NCBI RefSeq assembly: GCF_000217995.1
Contig: NC_015676.1
Location: forward strand, 1,156,103-1,220,102
Direction of reading: 5' to 3'
Length of the DNA stretch: 64,000 nucleotides
Source of the DNA: Methanosalsum zhilinae DSM 4017
Lineage (GTDB): Archaea; Halobacteriota; Methanosarcinia; Methanosarcinales; Methanosarcinaceae
Below the pieces are notes generated by a model. That model was not told the DNA's origin. It saw only the letters and a program-made list of their open reading frames with translations, and ran no database searches. Positions 3,001-11,999 of the stretch are shown here, piece by piece (the first letter of the stretch is position 1; each line of letters starts with the position of its first letter). The position numbers and the translations under genes were made by a program.

Positions 3001-4977
3001 TTACTTCAATGATAATAACTGTCTTTTTTCAATATATTTTGTAACGGTATCCACAAATTCTGCATGGCTCCATGTAAGTGGAGCCACTGACAGGGATTCA
3101 TATGTGAAGGGATGAACCTGCTCCGGCATAATACCTGTTTCAAGGGAACAATTCACAACCCAGTTAATAAGTTCAAGTGGCTTTTCAAGTTCATCTCCAC
3201 TTTTAGCTTTTGCAATATACCATTTTGCAAGCCAGAGAGTACATATGATCCATGGATTGCCGGGGTATTGATCGCTCTGCCGGTGATAATTGTCATTTTC
3301 ATAGCGTGCTATGCCACCGTTTGTACCCACTCGGAGTTTATTCTCCACTCGTCTCATCGTATTTTCGACTCTTATATCATCAGCCGGAAGGACACCAAAA
3401 TCAAATATTGCATACACACTGCTATCTACAGTCCTGTCAACAACCTTCTGATCAAGATCACCACATCTAAAATTGATACCCCTGAAAAATACCTCATTAT
3501 CACGATCAAATAGTTCATCAACTATGGACCTTTTCAGTTCCTGGTAAGTAGTCCTGCACAATGAACAAACTTCTTCATCATCGAGAAGGTCACCCAGCTT
3601 CTCGCCGGCTATAAGGCCTGCATAAACTGCAGCGCAGGTAAAAGTAAAAATACCTCTTCTCTCCTCCCATAGATCATAACTTTCACGAGGCATTTCGTTT
3701 GGGTAGCGATAACTATTGAGAAAAAAAGCTGCCTTTTTTATCAATGGTTCATAAAGTTCTATTATAAATTCCCTATCACCTGTGTTTTCATAATATTTCC
3801 AGAGAGCATAAAGTACCAGTGCAGTTTCATCTTCCTGTACCGGGAGTGAAGGTCTTCCAAATTCCACCCACGGATGCCAGCTGCTTCCAAGAGTCCCGTC
3901 TGGATTGTACTTATGAAGCATGCAGCCTGCCCACCATAGCACATCTTTACAAAATGTAAAAAATGGGCGGCCAAACTCTGGAAAGCCTGCATTTATCATG
4001 CCAGCTGCCGTAAGTGCTCCATCTCTTGCCCACATATAACTATATGTATCCCTGTTATATTGAAGATTATCAGAATCATTTGCTGCAATTATAGCTCCTT
4101 CTCTGTCAGTCTGTGTTTTGATCACAAAAAGAGATCTTCTGTACATCTCAGCTATCCGGGTATCAATGCCTGACAGATCCACTGATACATTACTTATCCA
4201 TAGTTTGTTATTCCTTTCCGTTTCTTCAATAATTGTCTCAGGTCCATTTTCTATCACTTGATCATTTAGCTTATATATCTCCTGAAAATTTTTTCCTGCA
4301 GTTATGTAATAGTATACAACTTTCTCTGATCTGCCGGGTATTTCTATATGTAATCCTATAGTAGAATCAACAGTACCCTGAGCTACAGGATTTTTGGACA
4401 GAATTCCATCCTCAGCGTCTTTAAATGTCCCTTCAAAAAATTCTCCTTCAGCCTGTCCAACAGAAAAATCATCAATATCAGTGGTCATCTTTTCAGTTAT
4501 ATTTGATTTCAGCGCACCTATCAGAAAATATCTTGAATTTTTGTAATGAACTATAACATTATGATCCATCTGATAAATTGCAGTATCACCAATTCCTGTT
4601 CCATAAATATGAAAATCCTGATTGAAAAAAAGCCGTATATTCCTTGTGTAAGAATGAAGATTCCTGATAGTTATCTTTCTTAAAAAGATATTCATGTCAC
4701 CATGCACACATTCATCCAGAAGTAACTCTATACCTATTCTGTGGTTAATGGCCTGGTTATCTGAAATAAGAGTATCCTTTCGATATCCATGACTTCTTTC
4801 CCACTCCGACTCATTGATCCAGGATATATTTCCGTCAGCATATACCCCTATTCTCTGAGCATGCCCTGACAGGTGATTCTCCTGCCCAACCTGAGGAAAA
4901 TAGATATCCCTTACCTGTAGCCACCGATCTATATTTATCAGTAATGATTGATTGCCAAGAACTATATGCCGGGTCAT
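3001..4977 (-). CDS. Glycoside hydrolase family 15 glucoamylase-like enzyme
   Basis: The protein has 658 residues and no signal peptide, so it is probably cytoplasmic. It has an N-terminal beta-sandwich of about 270 residues followed by an (alpha/alpha)6 barrel. The barrel starts near YNRDTYSYMWARDGA, a GH15 substrate-pocket motif. DLWEERRG carries the likely general acid, and LTWSHAEFV near the C-terminus carries the likely base. The family releases glucose from alpha-1,4 glucans, and some members are trehalases. Length is normal for archaeal glucoamylases. The start at 4977 is set by GGAGGT 5 nt upstream; the in-frame TTG at 4983 lies inside that site. With the glycogen phosphorylase at 23.9 kb it suggests use of a storage glucan. 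Confidence 0.9.
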   Translation of the reverse strand: MTRHIVLGNQSLLINIDRWLQVRDIYFPQVGQENHLSGHAQRIGVYADGNISWINESEWERSHGYRKDTLISDNQAINHRIGIELLLDECVHGDMNIFLRKITIRNLHSYTRNIRLFFNQDFHIYGTGIGDTAIYQMDHNVIVHYKNSRYFLIGALKSNITEKMTTDIDDFSVGQAEGEFFEGTFKDAEDGILSKNPVAQGTVDSTIGLHIEIPGRSEKVVYYYITAGKNFQEIYKLNDQVIENGPETIIEETERNNKLWISNVSVDLSGIDTRIAEMYRRSLFVIKTQTDREGAIIAANDSDNLQYNRDTYSYMWARDGALTAAGMINAGFPEFGRPFFTFCKDVLWWAGCMLHKYNPDGTLGSSWHPWVEFGRPSLPVQEDETALVLYALWKYYENTGDREFIIELYEPLIKKAAFFLNSYRYPNEMPRESYDLWEERRGIFTFTCAAVYAGLIAGEKLGDLLDDEEVCSLCRTTYQELKRSIVDELFDRDNEVFFRGINFRCGDLDQKVVDRTVDSSVYAIFDFGVLPADDIRVENTMRRVENKLRVGTNGGIARYENDNYHRQSDQYPGNPWIICTLWLAKWYIAKAKSGDELEKPLELINWVVNCSLETGIMPEQVHPFTYESLSVAPLTWSHAEFVDTVTKYIEKRQLLSLK

Positions 4978-7282: not shown

Positions 7283-7690
7283 CTAATTAATTTCCGTTTC
7301 TGCCACTTCACGTATTCTCTTGATGATGGAAGCCAGCCCATCAGCCCTTGCTGGGGATAGGTTCGATTTCAGCCCGGTTTCTTCGATAAAGTATAGGTCA
7401 AGGTCTACAATTTCCTGAGGAGATCGGTTATTCATAACTTTCATTAATAGATAGATTATACCTTTTGTAATCATAGCCTCACTATCAAGATGAATTATGA
7501 GTTTACCATTTTCTATATAGGTTCGTATCCAAACCTTGGACTGGCAACCACTGATTGCGTATTCTTCTGTCCTGAACTGCTCATCCATTGGTTCAAGTTC
7601 TCTGGCAAAGGAGATGAGTAACTCATATTTTTCAAGCCATTCAAGTCCATGGAACTGCTCGATGATCTCATCCTGGATATGGTCGCTCAT
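7283..7690 (-). CDS. sufE: SufE-like sulfur acceptor protein
   Basis: The protein has 135 residues and matches SufE from end to end. The persulfide-carrying cysteine is Cys49 in ISGCQSKVW, preceded by a helix and followed by the LDSEAMITKGI segment. SufE takes sulfane sulfur from the SufS cysteine desulfurase and hands it on. Its ATG overlaps the stop of sufS by 4 nt (ATGA). It is the last gene of a four-gene chain with the methyltransferase and rhodanese genes, so its recipient may be the rhodanese protein rather than, or as well as, an Fe-S scaffold; no SufBC genes are next to it. Confidence 0.9.
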   Translation of the reverse strand: MSDHIQDEIIEQFHGLEWLEKYELLISFARELEPMDEQFRTEEYAISGCQSKVWIRTYIENGKLIIHLDSEAMITKGIIYLLMKVMNNRSPQEIVDLDLYFIEETGLKSNLSPARADGLASIIKRIREVAETEIN

Positions 7691-8868
7691 GAAAACATCA
7701 TCCTTGCTTTTTCTATACTATCCATGAGAATATCGACATCATCCTTTGTGTTATACAATGCAAAACTTGCTCTCACGGTACCTTCAGTGCCAAGGAATTT
7801 CATCAATGGCTGTGCACAATGATGACCTGTTCTGACAGCAACTCCCATCTTATCCAGTATAAGGCCTAAGTCATAATGGTGGATATTTTCAATGTTGAAT
7901 GATATTGAACCACACATATCTTCGTTATTCCCGTAAACAGTAATGCCATCGGTATCAAGCAATCTTTCCTTTGCATAGGAATATACATCATGTTCGTGTT
8001 TCCTGATCTTATCAAGACCAATATCCTGCATATAATCAATTGCTGAATTAACACTTATGGCACCCGAAATATTAGGTGTTCCTGCCTCGTACCTTAAAGG
8101 AGGAGAAAGGTACGTTGACCCCTCAAAGGTCACTTTATCGACCATACCACCACCACCTCTTGCAGGCATAATATCACTGTACCTATTGTTGGTATAAAGA
8201 ACCCCAATACCTGATGATGCGTACATCTTATGTCCAGAAGCAGCCAGAAAATCACATCCAATTTTTTCAACGTCAATAGGTAAATGTTGTATCGATTGGG
8301 CTGCATCTACCAGGACAGGAATGTCGTGTTCTTTTGCAATTTCAGTTATTCTCTTAATATCGTTCACGGTTCCAAGTACATTGGAGACATGAGAGATGGC
8401 TATTAGCTTGGTTTTATCCGTGATCTCTATGGAGTCCAGTAACAAATTACAATCTTCATCCATAGGTATGGTTTTGATCTTAGCCTCTGCTAGCTGCCAT
8501 GGAACAATATTTGAATGGTGTTCCATTCCACTTATGAGTACCTCATTCCCCATCAAAGTTGATTTCAGTGAAAATGCGACCTGATTGATCGAATCGGTTG
8601 TACCTGCAGTAAATCTAATTTCACTTGGATCACTGCTGCCAATGAATGTACTTATCTTCTTCCTTGCCTCTTCATACCGATCACTTGATAGCTCACTAAG
8701 GTAGTGTACACCTCTGTGAATATTACTGTTATCATATTTGTAAAAGTCAGAAATGGCATCGATCACAGAACTGGGTTTTTGGCTTGTAGCTGCATTATCA
8801 AGGTATACTAATCTCTGACCATATATCTTATTTTTAAGTATAGGAAAATCATCTCTAAGATCAATCAT
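7687..8868 (-). CDS. sufS: Cysteine desulfurase, class II (SufS type)
   Basis: The 393-residue PLP enzyme converts L-cysteine to L-alanine and a protein persulfide. Lys214 in ASGHKMYASSG binds PLP, and Cys351 in RTGHHCAQP is the catalytic cysteine in the class II setting that needs SufE for turnover. YLDNAATSQKP at the N-terminus, and GTPNISG further on, are family marks. The start overlaps the upstream methyltransferase stop by 4 nt and has GGTGA just before it. Position between the EgtD-like methyltransferase and sufE suggests a dedicated sulfur source for that pathway. Confidence 0.95.
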   Translation of the reverse strand: MIDLRDDFPILKNKIYGQRLVYLDNAATSQKPSSVIDAISDFYKYDNSNIHRGVHYLSELSSDRYEEARKKISTFIGSSDPSEIRFTAGTTDSINQVAFSLKSTLMGNEVLISGMEHHSNIVPWQLAEAKIKTIPMDEDCNLLLDSIEITDKTKLIAISHVSNVLGTVNDIKRITEIAKEHDIPVLVDAAQSIQHLPIDVEKIGCDFLAASGHKMYASSGIGVLYTNNRYSDIMPARGGGGMVDKVTFEGSTYLSPPLRYEAGTPNISGAISVNSAIDYMQDIGLDKIRKHEHDVYSYAKERLLDTDGITVYGNNEDMCGSISFNIENIHHYDLGLILDKMGVAVRTGHHCAQPLMKFLGTEGTVRASFALYNTKDDVDILMDSIEKARMMFS

Positions 8869-9827
8869 TCTTTCACCATTTCAACAAGTGAGAACCATTT
8901 TTTATCATCAGAATAAATATCAGATACAAAAAGACCAGCAGTATCTGCCATATCATAGATGTGCTGTACAGTATACTTATGTGAATTTTCTGTATGAATG
9001 GTATCCCCTTTCTTGAAGATAATACGTTCCTTAAACAAATCACTTTTAACTACTAGATCCCTTTTTGCTTTCAAGTGCATCTCGATTCGTGAAAATTCTT
9101 TGTTGAAAAAAGCAACATGTTCAAAATCATCTGGATCAAAGTCAGTTCCTATATGATTGTTTGCGACCTTTAAAATATTCTTATTAAACTCCGCAGTAAT
9201 ACCCAGACTATCATTATATGCTCTCTCAAGTACATTGATATCTTTCACCATATCAACTCCGAGAAGAAGCCTATCATTTTCATTCATGACTTGTCCAAGC
9301 CGTTTCATGAATTCAGTAGTCTTAGCACGAGTAAGATTACCTATTGTACTCCCGAAAAAACAGAAGAACCTGTTCCTATCTCCAGGTATTAAATCCATAC
9401 TTTCAAGGAAATCGGCATTAATTCCATGAATACCTATCTCAGGGAATCTGTTCTGTAGAATATGACCAGATTTTTCCATAGCATCCTTGGAAACATCTAT
9501 TGGATAATAAATGATGGTTTCACGAATGTCTTTTGGAACTGCATCAAGGAACACTGAAATCTTAGAACAGTCACCACTCCCGAGTTCTACAAGGTTACAG
9601 TTCTTCAGTTCAGAATTAACTTTTTTAGCAGTCGATCTTAAAAGTGGGATCTCAATGTCAGGTAAATAATATTCTTCAAGTTTTGTTATTTGTTCGAACA
9701 GTTCCGAACCTTTCTGGTCATAGAAGAACACAGATGGTAATGTCTTTGGCTCAGACCTTAAACAAGTTAAAAGTCTTTCTTGAACTGAACGTTCTCCAAT
9801 CTCAGGCATAAAATTCTGTATGATCAT
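8865..9827 (-). CDS. eanA: L-histidine N-alpha-methyltransferase (EgtD/EanA-like)
   Basis: The 320-residue SAM enzyme belongs to the EgtD family, which trimethylates histidine to hercynine (N-alpha-trimethylhistidine). Marks in order: FFYDQKGSELFEQIT with the substrate-site tyrosine region, LEEYYLPDIE, the SAM loop LVELGSGDCSK, PIDVSKDAM, FFGSTIGNL, LLGVDMVKD, and FDPDDFEHVAFFN near residues 230-243. All are EgtD hallmarks. In aerobes EgtD works with the oxygenase EgtB; no EgtB is here. The upstream partner is a triple-rhodanese protein like EanB of green sulfur bacteria, so this gene corresponds to EanA. It overlaps both neighbours by 4 nt. Confidence 0.88.
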   Translation of the reverse strand: MIIQNFMPEIGERSVQERLLTCLRSEPKTLPSVFFYDQKGSELFEQITKLEEYYLPDIEIPLLRSTAKKVNSELKNCNLVELGSGDCSKISVFLDAVPKDIRETIIYYPIDVSKDAMEKSGHILQNRFPEIGIHGINADFLESMDLIPGDRNRFFCFFGSTIGNLTRAKTTEFMKRLGQVMNENDRLLLGVDMVKDINVLERAYNDSLGITAEFNKNILKVANNHIGTDFDPDDFEHVAFFNKEFSRIEMHLKAKRDLVVKSDLFKERIIFKKGDTIHTENSHKYTVQHIYDMADTAGLFVSDIYSDDKKWFSLVEMVKE

Positions 9828-11086
9828 TTTTCTGGCACACCTGTTTCAAAAGGAAGATCATTATTACTCCACTCAAACCATCCACCGTCAAAGACCGCTG
9901 CATTGTCCCAGCCCATGAGCCAAGCGTTAAGGAATGCTTCACTTCCTCTCCATCCAGTACCACAATAGAAGGCATTGCGTTTTTCGGGAGTTATACCTAA
10001 TTCTTTCCATTTATCTTCAATTTCATGGTATTCTCGCATAGTGTGGTCCAGGTTCCTGTAGTTCTCCATGTGATAAGCATCAGTTCCGCAATCCCCGAAC
10101 ACAGATCCCGGGATACGACCTTTTTTCTCAATATAGTTATAACCACTTACTTCACCAATATATTCTCTCCAACTCCTGACACTTACCAGTTTTTTGCCAG
10201 GGTCTGAAAGTATCTCCTTTGCTTCCTCAAGATCAACAGCAATTTTAGGGTTTAAAGGAATATTGGCACCAAAAGATACTTTACTTATTTTAGCAGGTTC
10301 TGTTGTGACATTATAACCTGCATCAAGCCAGGACTGGAGTCCACCATTAAGGATCCTTACATCCTTGACTCCAGCATAAAGCATTATGAATGCACATCGC
10401 ATTGCACCAAGGTGACCCGCGCTACTGCCTGGAAATGGGTCATCGTTCTTTGGGTAGGAGAACCTTCCATATACAATAACTGTTGTTTCACTGGAAATAC
10501 CTGCATTTTCAAGTGCATCTTTTAGTTCTTCTGGTGAACGACGGTTCCATGTATCCTCGGATTCGAGTGAATTGGTATCAAGTGGGATCGAGCCTGGAAT
10601 ATGACCTTTTTCATAATCCACTGGATTTCTGTAATGGCAATGGCATATGACATACTTATCATTATCATATTCAGGTGCATTGTCGGTAGTTATCAATTGG
10701 TTCAGCCAATCAGGAGATACTAAGTGTCGGTACCTCTCAAGTCGGTCCATTGGCAGATTCCTTTCTACCCACTCGAAAAAAGAAGGGTATATGTTCAGGT
10801 CAGTATAACCAGCCTTTTCAAACATTCTGGCAACCTCTTCTGCTTTCTCTGAGTCATAACCGTAAATTACAAGTTTGTCTTGTGGGAGAATATCCTTGCT
10901 CCTAACGATCTCGATCCAGTCAATGTAGTTTACCCACTTGTAAGGTAGTGATTTTGCACTTCTTATATGCCCACCTCTGTTTTCCCCATTCTCCTTCCAT
11001 CCATTATAAGCATCTACAGATCTAATATCAATGACTTTGTATCTATGCAAGTTTTCTAATAATTCATCAGTTGAAATGGATTTCAT
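9824..11086 (-). CDS. eanB: EanB-like rhodanese sulfurtransferase (hercynine sulfurtransferase)
   Basis: The 420-residue protein has three rhodanese-type domains (about residues 1-115, 130-262, 285-415). Only the last has an intact active loop, YCGTGWRG, with Cys375 preceded by Tyr374. In EanB of Chlorobium limicola the persulfide on the equivalent Cys, also preceded by Tyr, delivers sulfur to the C-2 carbon of hercynine's imidazole without oxygen, giving ergothioneine. DAYHMENY in domain 3 offers another candidate active-site tyrosine. The next gene, 4 nt overlapped, is the histidine methyltransferase. Generic thiosulfate or mercaptopyruvate sulfurtransferases have two domains, which supports the EanB call. 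No Shine-Dalgarno is seen; a TATA box lies 24 nt upstream. Confidence 0.82.
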   Translation of the reverse strand: MKSISTDELLENLHRYKVIDIRSVDAYNGWKENGENRGGHIRSAKSLPYKWVNYIDWIEIVRSKDILPQDKLVIYGYDSEKAEEVARMFEKAGYTDLNIYPSFFEWVERNLPMDRLERYRHLVSPDWLNQLITTDNAPEYDNDKYVICHCHYRNPVDYEKGHIPGSIPLDTNSLESEDTWNRRSPEELKDALENAGISSETTVIVYGRFSYPKNDDPFPGSSAGHLGAMRCAFIMLYAGVKDVRILNGGLQSWLDAGYNVTTEPAKISKVSFGANIPLNPKIAVDLEEAKEILSDPGKKLVSVRSWREYIGEVSGYNYIEKKGRIPGSVFGDCGTDAYHMENYRNLDHTMREYHEIEDKWKELGITPEKRNAFYCGTGWRGSEAFLNAWLMGWDNAAVFDGGWFEWSNNDLPFETGVPEK

Positions 11087-11284: not shown

Positions 11285-11999
11285 ATTGGTATCTAAACAT
11301 AGTTATACATGAATTGTCCAAGATGCAAGAGTGCTGATCACAAAAAGAACGGTAGAATAGGTGGACGTCAACATTACAAATGCAATGATTGCGGGTATAA
11401 CTATTCAGTGGAAATTAAATCGACTACTAATCCAATGTCTGTTAAACGGCAGGCTTTACAACTATACCTGGAAGGGTTAGGGTTTCGTTCAATAGGACGT
11501 TTTTTAGGAGTAAATCATGTTTCTGTTCAAAAATGGATAAAGAAATTTGGCCAGGATATAGAGAATATAAAAAGTGAAAATGAAATCTCTATCGTGGAAC
11601 TGGATGAGATGCACACTTATATCGGGAACAAAAAAATATTGCTGGATCTGGATTGCTTTTGATAGAGTTGGGAAAAAATTCATCGACTGCTCTTTTGGTA
11701 GCAGAGGAACAGAAACAGGACAAAAACTCGGAGAATATTTAAAAGAAAAGGAGATTGAAGAAGTAATGACTGATTACTGGAGGGCATATGCAGAGTTTGT
11801 TCCAGAAAATTTTCATACTCAATCCAAAACTGAAACATATACCGTCGAAGGATATAACAGCATATTAAGGCACTTTCTGGCAAGATTGCGAAGAAAAAAA
11901 AGTGTTATACTAAGAGTCTTGAAATGCTGAAGTACTCTGTTCTTATGTTAATGAAATATAGAAATAAGGAATTAACTATATTTAATTAACAATACCAAT
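11285..11999 (+). mobile_element. IS1-family-like insertion sequence, decayed
   Basis: The short element of about 715 bp is bounded by ATTGGTAT at 11285-11292 and its inverted copy ATACCAAT at 11992-11999. It holds one transposase region that is now split by two frame changes. I see no target duplication next to the ends, which fits an old insertion. Confidence 0.65.
11309..11989 (+). pseudogene. IS1-like transposase, frame broken twice
   Basis: The N-terminal part has a zinc ribbon (CPRC...CNDC), a helix-turn-helix (FRSIGRFLGVNHVSVQKWIKK) and the first catalytic aspartate in ELDEMHTYIGNKK. The reading frame then shifts by +1 at an A7 run near 11632 and continues as YCWIWIAFDRVGKK with a second aspartate in TDYWRAYAEF and the glutamate in TVEGYNSILRHFLARLRRK. 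It returns by -1 at an A8 run near 11894-11901 and ends KCYTKSLEMLKYSVL...NKELTIFN at 11989. Many archaeal relatives are single frame. The two shifts restore the original frame, so this is either two mutations in poly-A tracts or recoding; decay is more likely. Confidence 0.7.

Follow-up and report, generated by a model that had tools for sequence, protein, structure and literature searches.

The closest described relatives of the system reported here are EanA and EanB of Chlorobium limicola (Burn 2017; PDB 6ktv, 6h98), the same two enzymes, with the same catalytic residues and oxygen-independent chemistry, and the eanAB genes of two methanogens from the same family as Methanosalsum: those of Methanohalophilus mahii have already been published (PMC11993508, citing Burn 2017), and the EanA-EanB synteny of Methanococcoides vulcani has been noted (PMC7278568). 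The sulfur donor of EanB is disputed, since IscS plus cysteine supported the enzyme in vitro, and polysulfide was later argued to be the direct donor because the catalytic cysteine (Cys412 of the C. limicola enzyme, ClEanB) sits at the bottom of a tunnel 13 angstrom long, out of reach of IscS (PMC9103826). Here we describe a four-gene operon, eanB-eanA-sufS-sufE, on the minus strand at positions 7283-11086 of a 64,000-nucleotide stretch (hereafter the window) of the Methanosalsum zhilinae DSM 4017 genome, which is a single 2.14 Mb contig. To judge from its genes, the operon probably encodes a pathway to ergothioneine that needs no oxygen and is supplied with cysteine sulfur by a SufS-SufE relay of its own; the coupling of SufS-SufE to eanBA is the apparently new element, the EanA-EanB pathway itself being already known.

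Two further systems offer comparison. The MES enzyme of Caldithrix abyssi (PMC9516567) likewise serves oxygen-free ergothioneine formation and draws its sulfur from cysteine through a dedicated desulfurase, but this desulfurase, of the IscS/NifS type, forms one protein with a metallopterin domain, the sulfurising enzyme is unrelated, and no SufE takes part. The SufS-SufE and CsdA-CsdE pairs of Escherichia coli combine the same type II desulfurase and E-type persulfide acceptor, with the same key residues; the acceptor of E. coli SufS-SufE is SufBCD, whereas the acceptor proposed here is the rhodanese EanB, and the Methanosalsum SufS belongs to a separate clade with a glycine at the beta-latch position.

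Open reading frame (ORF) analysis showed that each stop/start pair in the operon overlaps by 4 nt. An earlier note on this DNA had described four minus-strand genes with exactly such overlaps, and its coordinates were right to the base; the residues that it took as catalytic (Tyr374-Cys375-GTGWR in EanB, Lys214 and Cys351 in SufS, Cys49 in SufE) also aligned at the positions it gave, although its word "fused" does not apply, as the genes share an operon and there is no fusion. The eanB-eanA-sufS-sufE order was found in all 20 methanogen loci read at length, with the 4-nt overlap present between eanA and sufS and between sufS and sufE in 20/20 and between eanB and eanA in 16 of the 19 loci measured (1 nt in the other three). 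The arrangement is thus not due to chance, since gene order and short overlaps repeat in these related loci. No further conserved partner (transporter, thioredoxin or regulator) was detected around the operon, and no other neighbor was present in more than six of the 20 methanogen loci.

The eanB gene (9824-11086, minus strand) encodes a triple-rhodanese protein of 420 amino acids, annotated as ergothioneine synthase, with three PF00581 domains and a single catalytic cysteine, located in the live YCGTGWR loop of domain 3. The protein aligned with C. limicola EanB (PDB 6ktv) at E = 1e-171 and 59% identity, and its match to E. coli YnjE, likewise a triple rhodanese, was far weaker (E = 4e-81); it therefore groups with true EanB, and an identity as YnjE or as an ordinary thiosulfate sulfurtransferase was ruled out by these values. 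Its nearest named relative is the EanB of Methanosalsum natronophilum (95%). The catalytic residues of ClEanB are Tyr353, Cys412, Thr414 and Arg417 (PMC10903977, PMC9103826); in the alignment Y316, Y374, C375, T377 and R380 of the window protein correspond to Y353, Y411, C412, T414 and R417 of ClEanB. The conserved Cys/Tyr check proposed in the earlier note bore out an invariant active site, the five positions being unchanged across 101 aligned sequences with the sole exception of Y374 (100/101). The codon of Cys375, the predicted sulfane-carrying residue equivalent to ClEanB Cys412, was placed at 9962-9964 (minus strand) from the alignment and the gene start. By its active site, which matches that of the characterised enzyme, the EanB of the operon would be a hercynine-to-ergothioneine synthase.

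The adjoining eanA (8865-9827, minus strand) encodes a SAM-dependent L-histidine N-alpha-methyltransferase of the EgtD family (320 amino acids; Methyltransf_33, PF10017), which scored above the cut-off of the egtD_ergothio equivalog TIGR03438 (346.5 vs 290.9 bits). Residues Y54, N164, Y204, E280 and S282 were conserved in 71/71 sequences and fall on the histidine pocket of EgtD, which we take to be Tyr56, Asn166, Tyr206, Glu282 and Ser284. With the equivalog cut-off passed and the histidine pocket intact, the methyltransferase is an EgtD/EanA equivalog, and neither of the two phylogenetic outcomes that the earlier note had named as refuting was borne out. A distant Methyltransf_33 protein, scoring about 80 bits, was observed in many relatives with large genomes and no EanB (e.g., G151:C1:2355392-2356318), and this protein of Methanosarcina-type genomes may be mistaken for EgtD; the EanA of the operon, at 344 bits, was ruled out as a member of that paralogous group. 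Beliaeva and Seebeck proposed that some EanB-like enzymes act on other heterocycles (PMC9516567), and EanB could in principle thiolate a compound other than hercynine here as well, which is highly improbable given the translational coupling of eanA to eanB, the intact EgtD-type histidine site of EanA, and active-site residues in EanB identical to those of the hercynine enzyme. The four-gene operon would very probably make ergothioneine without oxygen.

The third gene, sufS (7687-8868, minus strand; 393 amino acids), encodes a type II cysteine desulfurase of the Aminotran_5 family, above the Pfam cut-off and with 502 bits against a cut-off of 475 for the NCBIfam sufS model; the pyridoxal phosphate (PLP) lysine, Lys214, and the short-loop catalytic Cys351, which carries the persulfide, were both identified by alignment. 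The fourth, sufE (7283-7690, minus strand; 135 amino acids), encodes a persulfide carrier above the Pfam cut-off for PF02657 (134 bits), whose Cys49 and Arg115 were present in 42/42 and 41/42 EanB-linked SufE proteins, respectively, their E. coli equivalents being the acceptor cysteine C51 and the release arginine R119. In solved systems a residue of the HxxD motif of SufS tracks the partner protein, Tyr for SufE and His for SufU (PMC11408855). This position is Tyr332 in the window SufS and Tyr in 25/27 ean-linked SufS, whereas it is His in the other SufS of the same genome (L133) and in two SUF-type SufS (L182, L185) from genomes that also hold ean-linked SufSE. A glycine occupied the beta-latch position in 27/27 ean-linked SufS and in none of 13 SUF-type proteins, which have Glu or Asp; it is also present in the methanogen SufS paralogues. 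The 27 ean-linked SufS formed one clade (support 99/98), apart from SUF-type SufS; neither the methanogen paralogue nor the SUF-type copies that share a genome with an ean-linked SufS (L182, L185) fell within it.

An order-wide survey of 186 Methanosarcinales genomes yielded full-length EanB in 29, belonging to Methanosalsum, Methanococcoides, Methanohalophilus and Methanolobus. Full-length SufE was limited, among the Methanosarcinales surveyed, to the same 29 genomes and G126, whose operon is interrupted by contig ends; close EanA matches (E<1e-60) were confined to these 30 genomes, and ean-type SufS (>=71% identity) occurred in the same set, G096 keeping only its last 23 codons at a contig start. 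A second SufS paralogue (~42%) was found in most Methanosarcinales genomes, with or without EanB. Three genera mix species holding all four genes with species holding none, and two losses have left only stubs, one of ~53 amino acids of EanB in G094 and one of 30 amino acids of SufE in G092; this all-or-none pattern within genera, together with the stubs, indicates that the ean-suf set was lost as a unit. Beside the EanB stub of G094 (L279 3375-7036), a large RecF/AAA-like ATPase and small ORFs were seen which, by eye, resemble a defence island.

Carrying sulfur to SufBC is a known function of SufE, and a 2021 survey that found it in 10/132 Methanosarcinales genomes took it as iron-sulfur (Fe-S) machinery (PMC8351635), so that the SufS and SufE described here might be ordinary Fe-S cluster suppliers merely adjoining eanBA. 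This is very unlikely: some 150 Methanosarcinales genomes do without SufE, the linked SufS form a separate clade, and the adjacency of SufE and EanB persists across phyla. The sole SufB/D-core gene of the M. zhilinae genome (G000:C1:762837) lies about 400 kb from the operon, and the linked sufB, sufC and sufD of a SUF Fe-S assembly operon are not seen here; the earlier statement that no SufBC is nearby holds for SufB, while SufC was not searched for separately. Three lines of evidence, the co-occurrence pattern, the remoteness of SufB and the SufS tree, led us to reject a generic Fe-S role for the sufSE pair.

To follow the coupling beyond methanogens, 84,980 species genomes were scanned for EanB, giving 421 relatives, and the loci of the best 80 of these were read. 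The complete eanB-eanA-sufS-sufE order was also found in Thermoplasmata (Thermoplasmatota), Syntrophomonadaceae (Bacillota), Aminicenantes, Omnitrophota, Elusimicrobia (Elusimicrobiota), Phycisphaerae (Planctomycetota) and Fibrobacter (Fibrobacterota). The Ean-sufSE coupling pointed out in the earlier note is accordingly real, and repeats in other archaea, but it is not specific to methanogens, extending over two phyla of archaea and six or more of bacteria. Loci with eanB-sufS-sufE and no eanA were seen in an Ignavibacterium relative (Ignavibacteriota), Chitinivibrionales and BMS3Abin03. In seven further loci eanB is accompanied by sufE only; these belong to Calditrichota, Gemmatimonadota, Ignavibacteriales (Ignavibacteriota), a Bacteroidete and an unclassified metagenome-assembled genome (MAG). 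A search for EgtD/EanA in 11 genomes (the seven with eanB-sufE, three with eanB-sufSE, and one Gemmatimonadete with eanA-eanB-sufE) was positive in nine, including five of the seven strict eanB-sufE genomes, where EanA is encoded elsewhere, indicating that EanB retains SufE even after EanA and SufS have been relocated. In the Caldithrix genome G214 (L226 559-1929), a second, very distant rhodanese (24%) stands immediately before a SufE-like protein that is likewise very distant (21%), perhaps another SufE-rhodanese pair beside the EanB-SufE of that genome.

SufE was present in 25/27 EanB genomes searched, and the linked copy was the only SufE in 10/11 non-methanogen eanBA-sufSE genomes searched (the 10 with an intact locus). 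In Bacteroidota without linkage the single SufE adjoins another SufS, presumably of the SUF type. Among 193 Omnitrophota genomes, one had a complete EanB and three had SufE, including that one, the other two matching at 34-35%. SufE thus goes with EanB, and in the genomes tested it is EanB-linked where no other SufE exists. In the EanB tree, all SufE-coupled members fell outside a well supported clade (99/93) of 45 uncoupled sequences, which come from Bacteroidota, Ignavibacteriota and C. limicola; the enzyme that has been characterised therefore stands for the uncoupled clade, a large Bacteroidota clade without linked sufS or sufE, in contrast to the Methanosalsum operon with its SufSE pair. 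Alignment identified 18 positions (in the stretch 128-264 and at 299 and 371 of the window EanB) that separate SufE-coupled from uncoupled EanB, mostly in domain 2, plus Asn371 vs Leu, four residues before the catalytic cysteine; this signature may mark a docking surface and is offered as a lead.

In the proposed pathway, EanA would methylate histidine three times to give hercynine, and SufS would move the sulfur of L-cysteine onto Cys351. SufE, docking on a SufS that has the SufE-type Tyr332, would accept the sulfur on Cys49 and ferry it as a protected persulfide to Cys375 of EanB, which, with Tyr316 as acid/base, would place it on C2 of the hercynine imidazole. The early steps, from cysteine to SufS and SufE, would follow what is known of these families. 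SufE has a mobile cysteine loop with which it reaches the buried cysteine of SufS; such a loop would suit the EanB cysteine in its tunnel equally well and makes SufE a plausible donor. The order of the genes, their families and catalytic residues, their co-occurrence and the separate SufS clade are direct observations; from them we infer the direct transfer of persulfide from SufE to EanB, as well as ergothioneine as the product in Methanosalsum cells and any physiological role that it may have there, such as that of the redox buffer suggested in the earlier note. Co-occurrence, linkage across phyla, the SufS clade and the gene overlaps argue strongly for the SufS to SufE to EanB relay suggested in the earlier note.

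Several observations weigh against this relay. The support for a relay to any SufE-linked EanB is comparative; the SufE tree agrees with the SufS tree but splits ean-linked from other SufE weakly (60/99), too weakly to establish that a dedicated SufE clade exists; the EanB-SufE genomes G218 and G219 had no EanA match in the EgtD/EanA search, so that their EanB may have a different substrate or their MAGs may be incomplete; and one Bacteroidales EanB MAG (G203), among the 27 EanB genomes searched, lacked SufE. Moreover, the C. limicola EanB takes polysulfide directly in vitro, its Cys412 having been judged beyond the reach of IscS (PMC9103826), and this EanB falls in the clade without linked sufSE. 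SufSE might accordingly release polysulfide or sulfane sulfur which EanB takes up with no direct SufE-EanB contact, an alternative that we consider unlikely since SufE, with its mobile loop, serves to shield the persulfide (PMC11408855), and since EanB-SufE pairs persist without adjacent SufS or EanA. Alongside the SufS-SufE-EanB relay, we lean towards the existence of two EanB groups, an uncoupled clade that includes C. limicola and a SufE-coupled group in which dedicated SufS-SufE would give protein-bound persulfide directly, the methanogen SufE then being an ergothioneine factor and not an Fe-S factor.

Other features were observed in and around the locus. The stop codon of sufE in the window is TAG (7283-7285), and read-through would add about 10 residues. 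The eanA of one Methanococcoides (G095; L047 ~9977-9979, also L024 ~3132-3134) contains one in-frame TAG, on either side of which the homology continues; in this pyrrolysine-using family the codon may encode pyrrolysine and not a stop. Upstream of eanB, at a distance of about 220 bp from where the operon begins, lies an IS1-like element with two overlapping plus-strand ORFs (11309-11930), one frame apart, corresponding to a helix-turn-helix part and an IS1-type DDE transposase part (PF03400); the element is either intact, with frameshifting, or broken.

The ean genes reported for a methanogen in the earlier note are present, though not as a novelty, having been published in 2017-2020 papers (PMC7278568; PMC11993508 citing Burn 2017); PMC7278568 and PMC11993508, both reviews, are silent on SufS or SufE adjoining eanAB of M. 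vulcani and M. mahii. As of a 2020 review, ergothioneine was undetected in archaea (PMC7278568). No description of an ergothioneine-SufE link was found among 5.39 million open papers, a search that did not cover Burn 2017, Cheng 2020, Cheng 2021 and Leisinger 2019, so that priority is unproven. Encoded with EanB in many phyla, SufSE is a concrete candidate for the in vivo sulfur donor, testable with the four purified proteins. The coupling would also re-explain the presence of SufE in a few methanogens, formerly taken as part of Fe-S assembly, and SufSE-EanB would represent a second way, unrelated to the fused MES, of bringing cysteine sulfur to oxygen-free ergothioneine synthesis.

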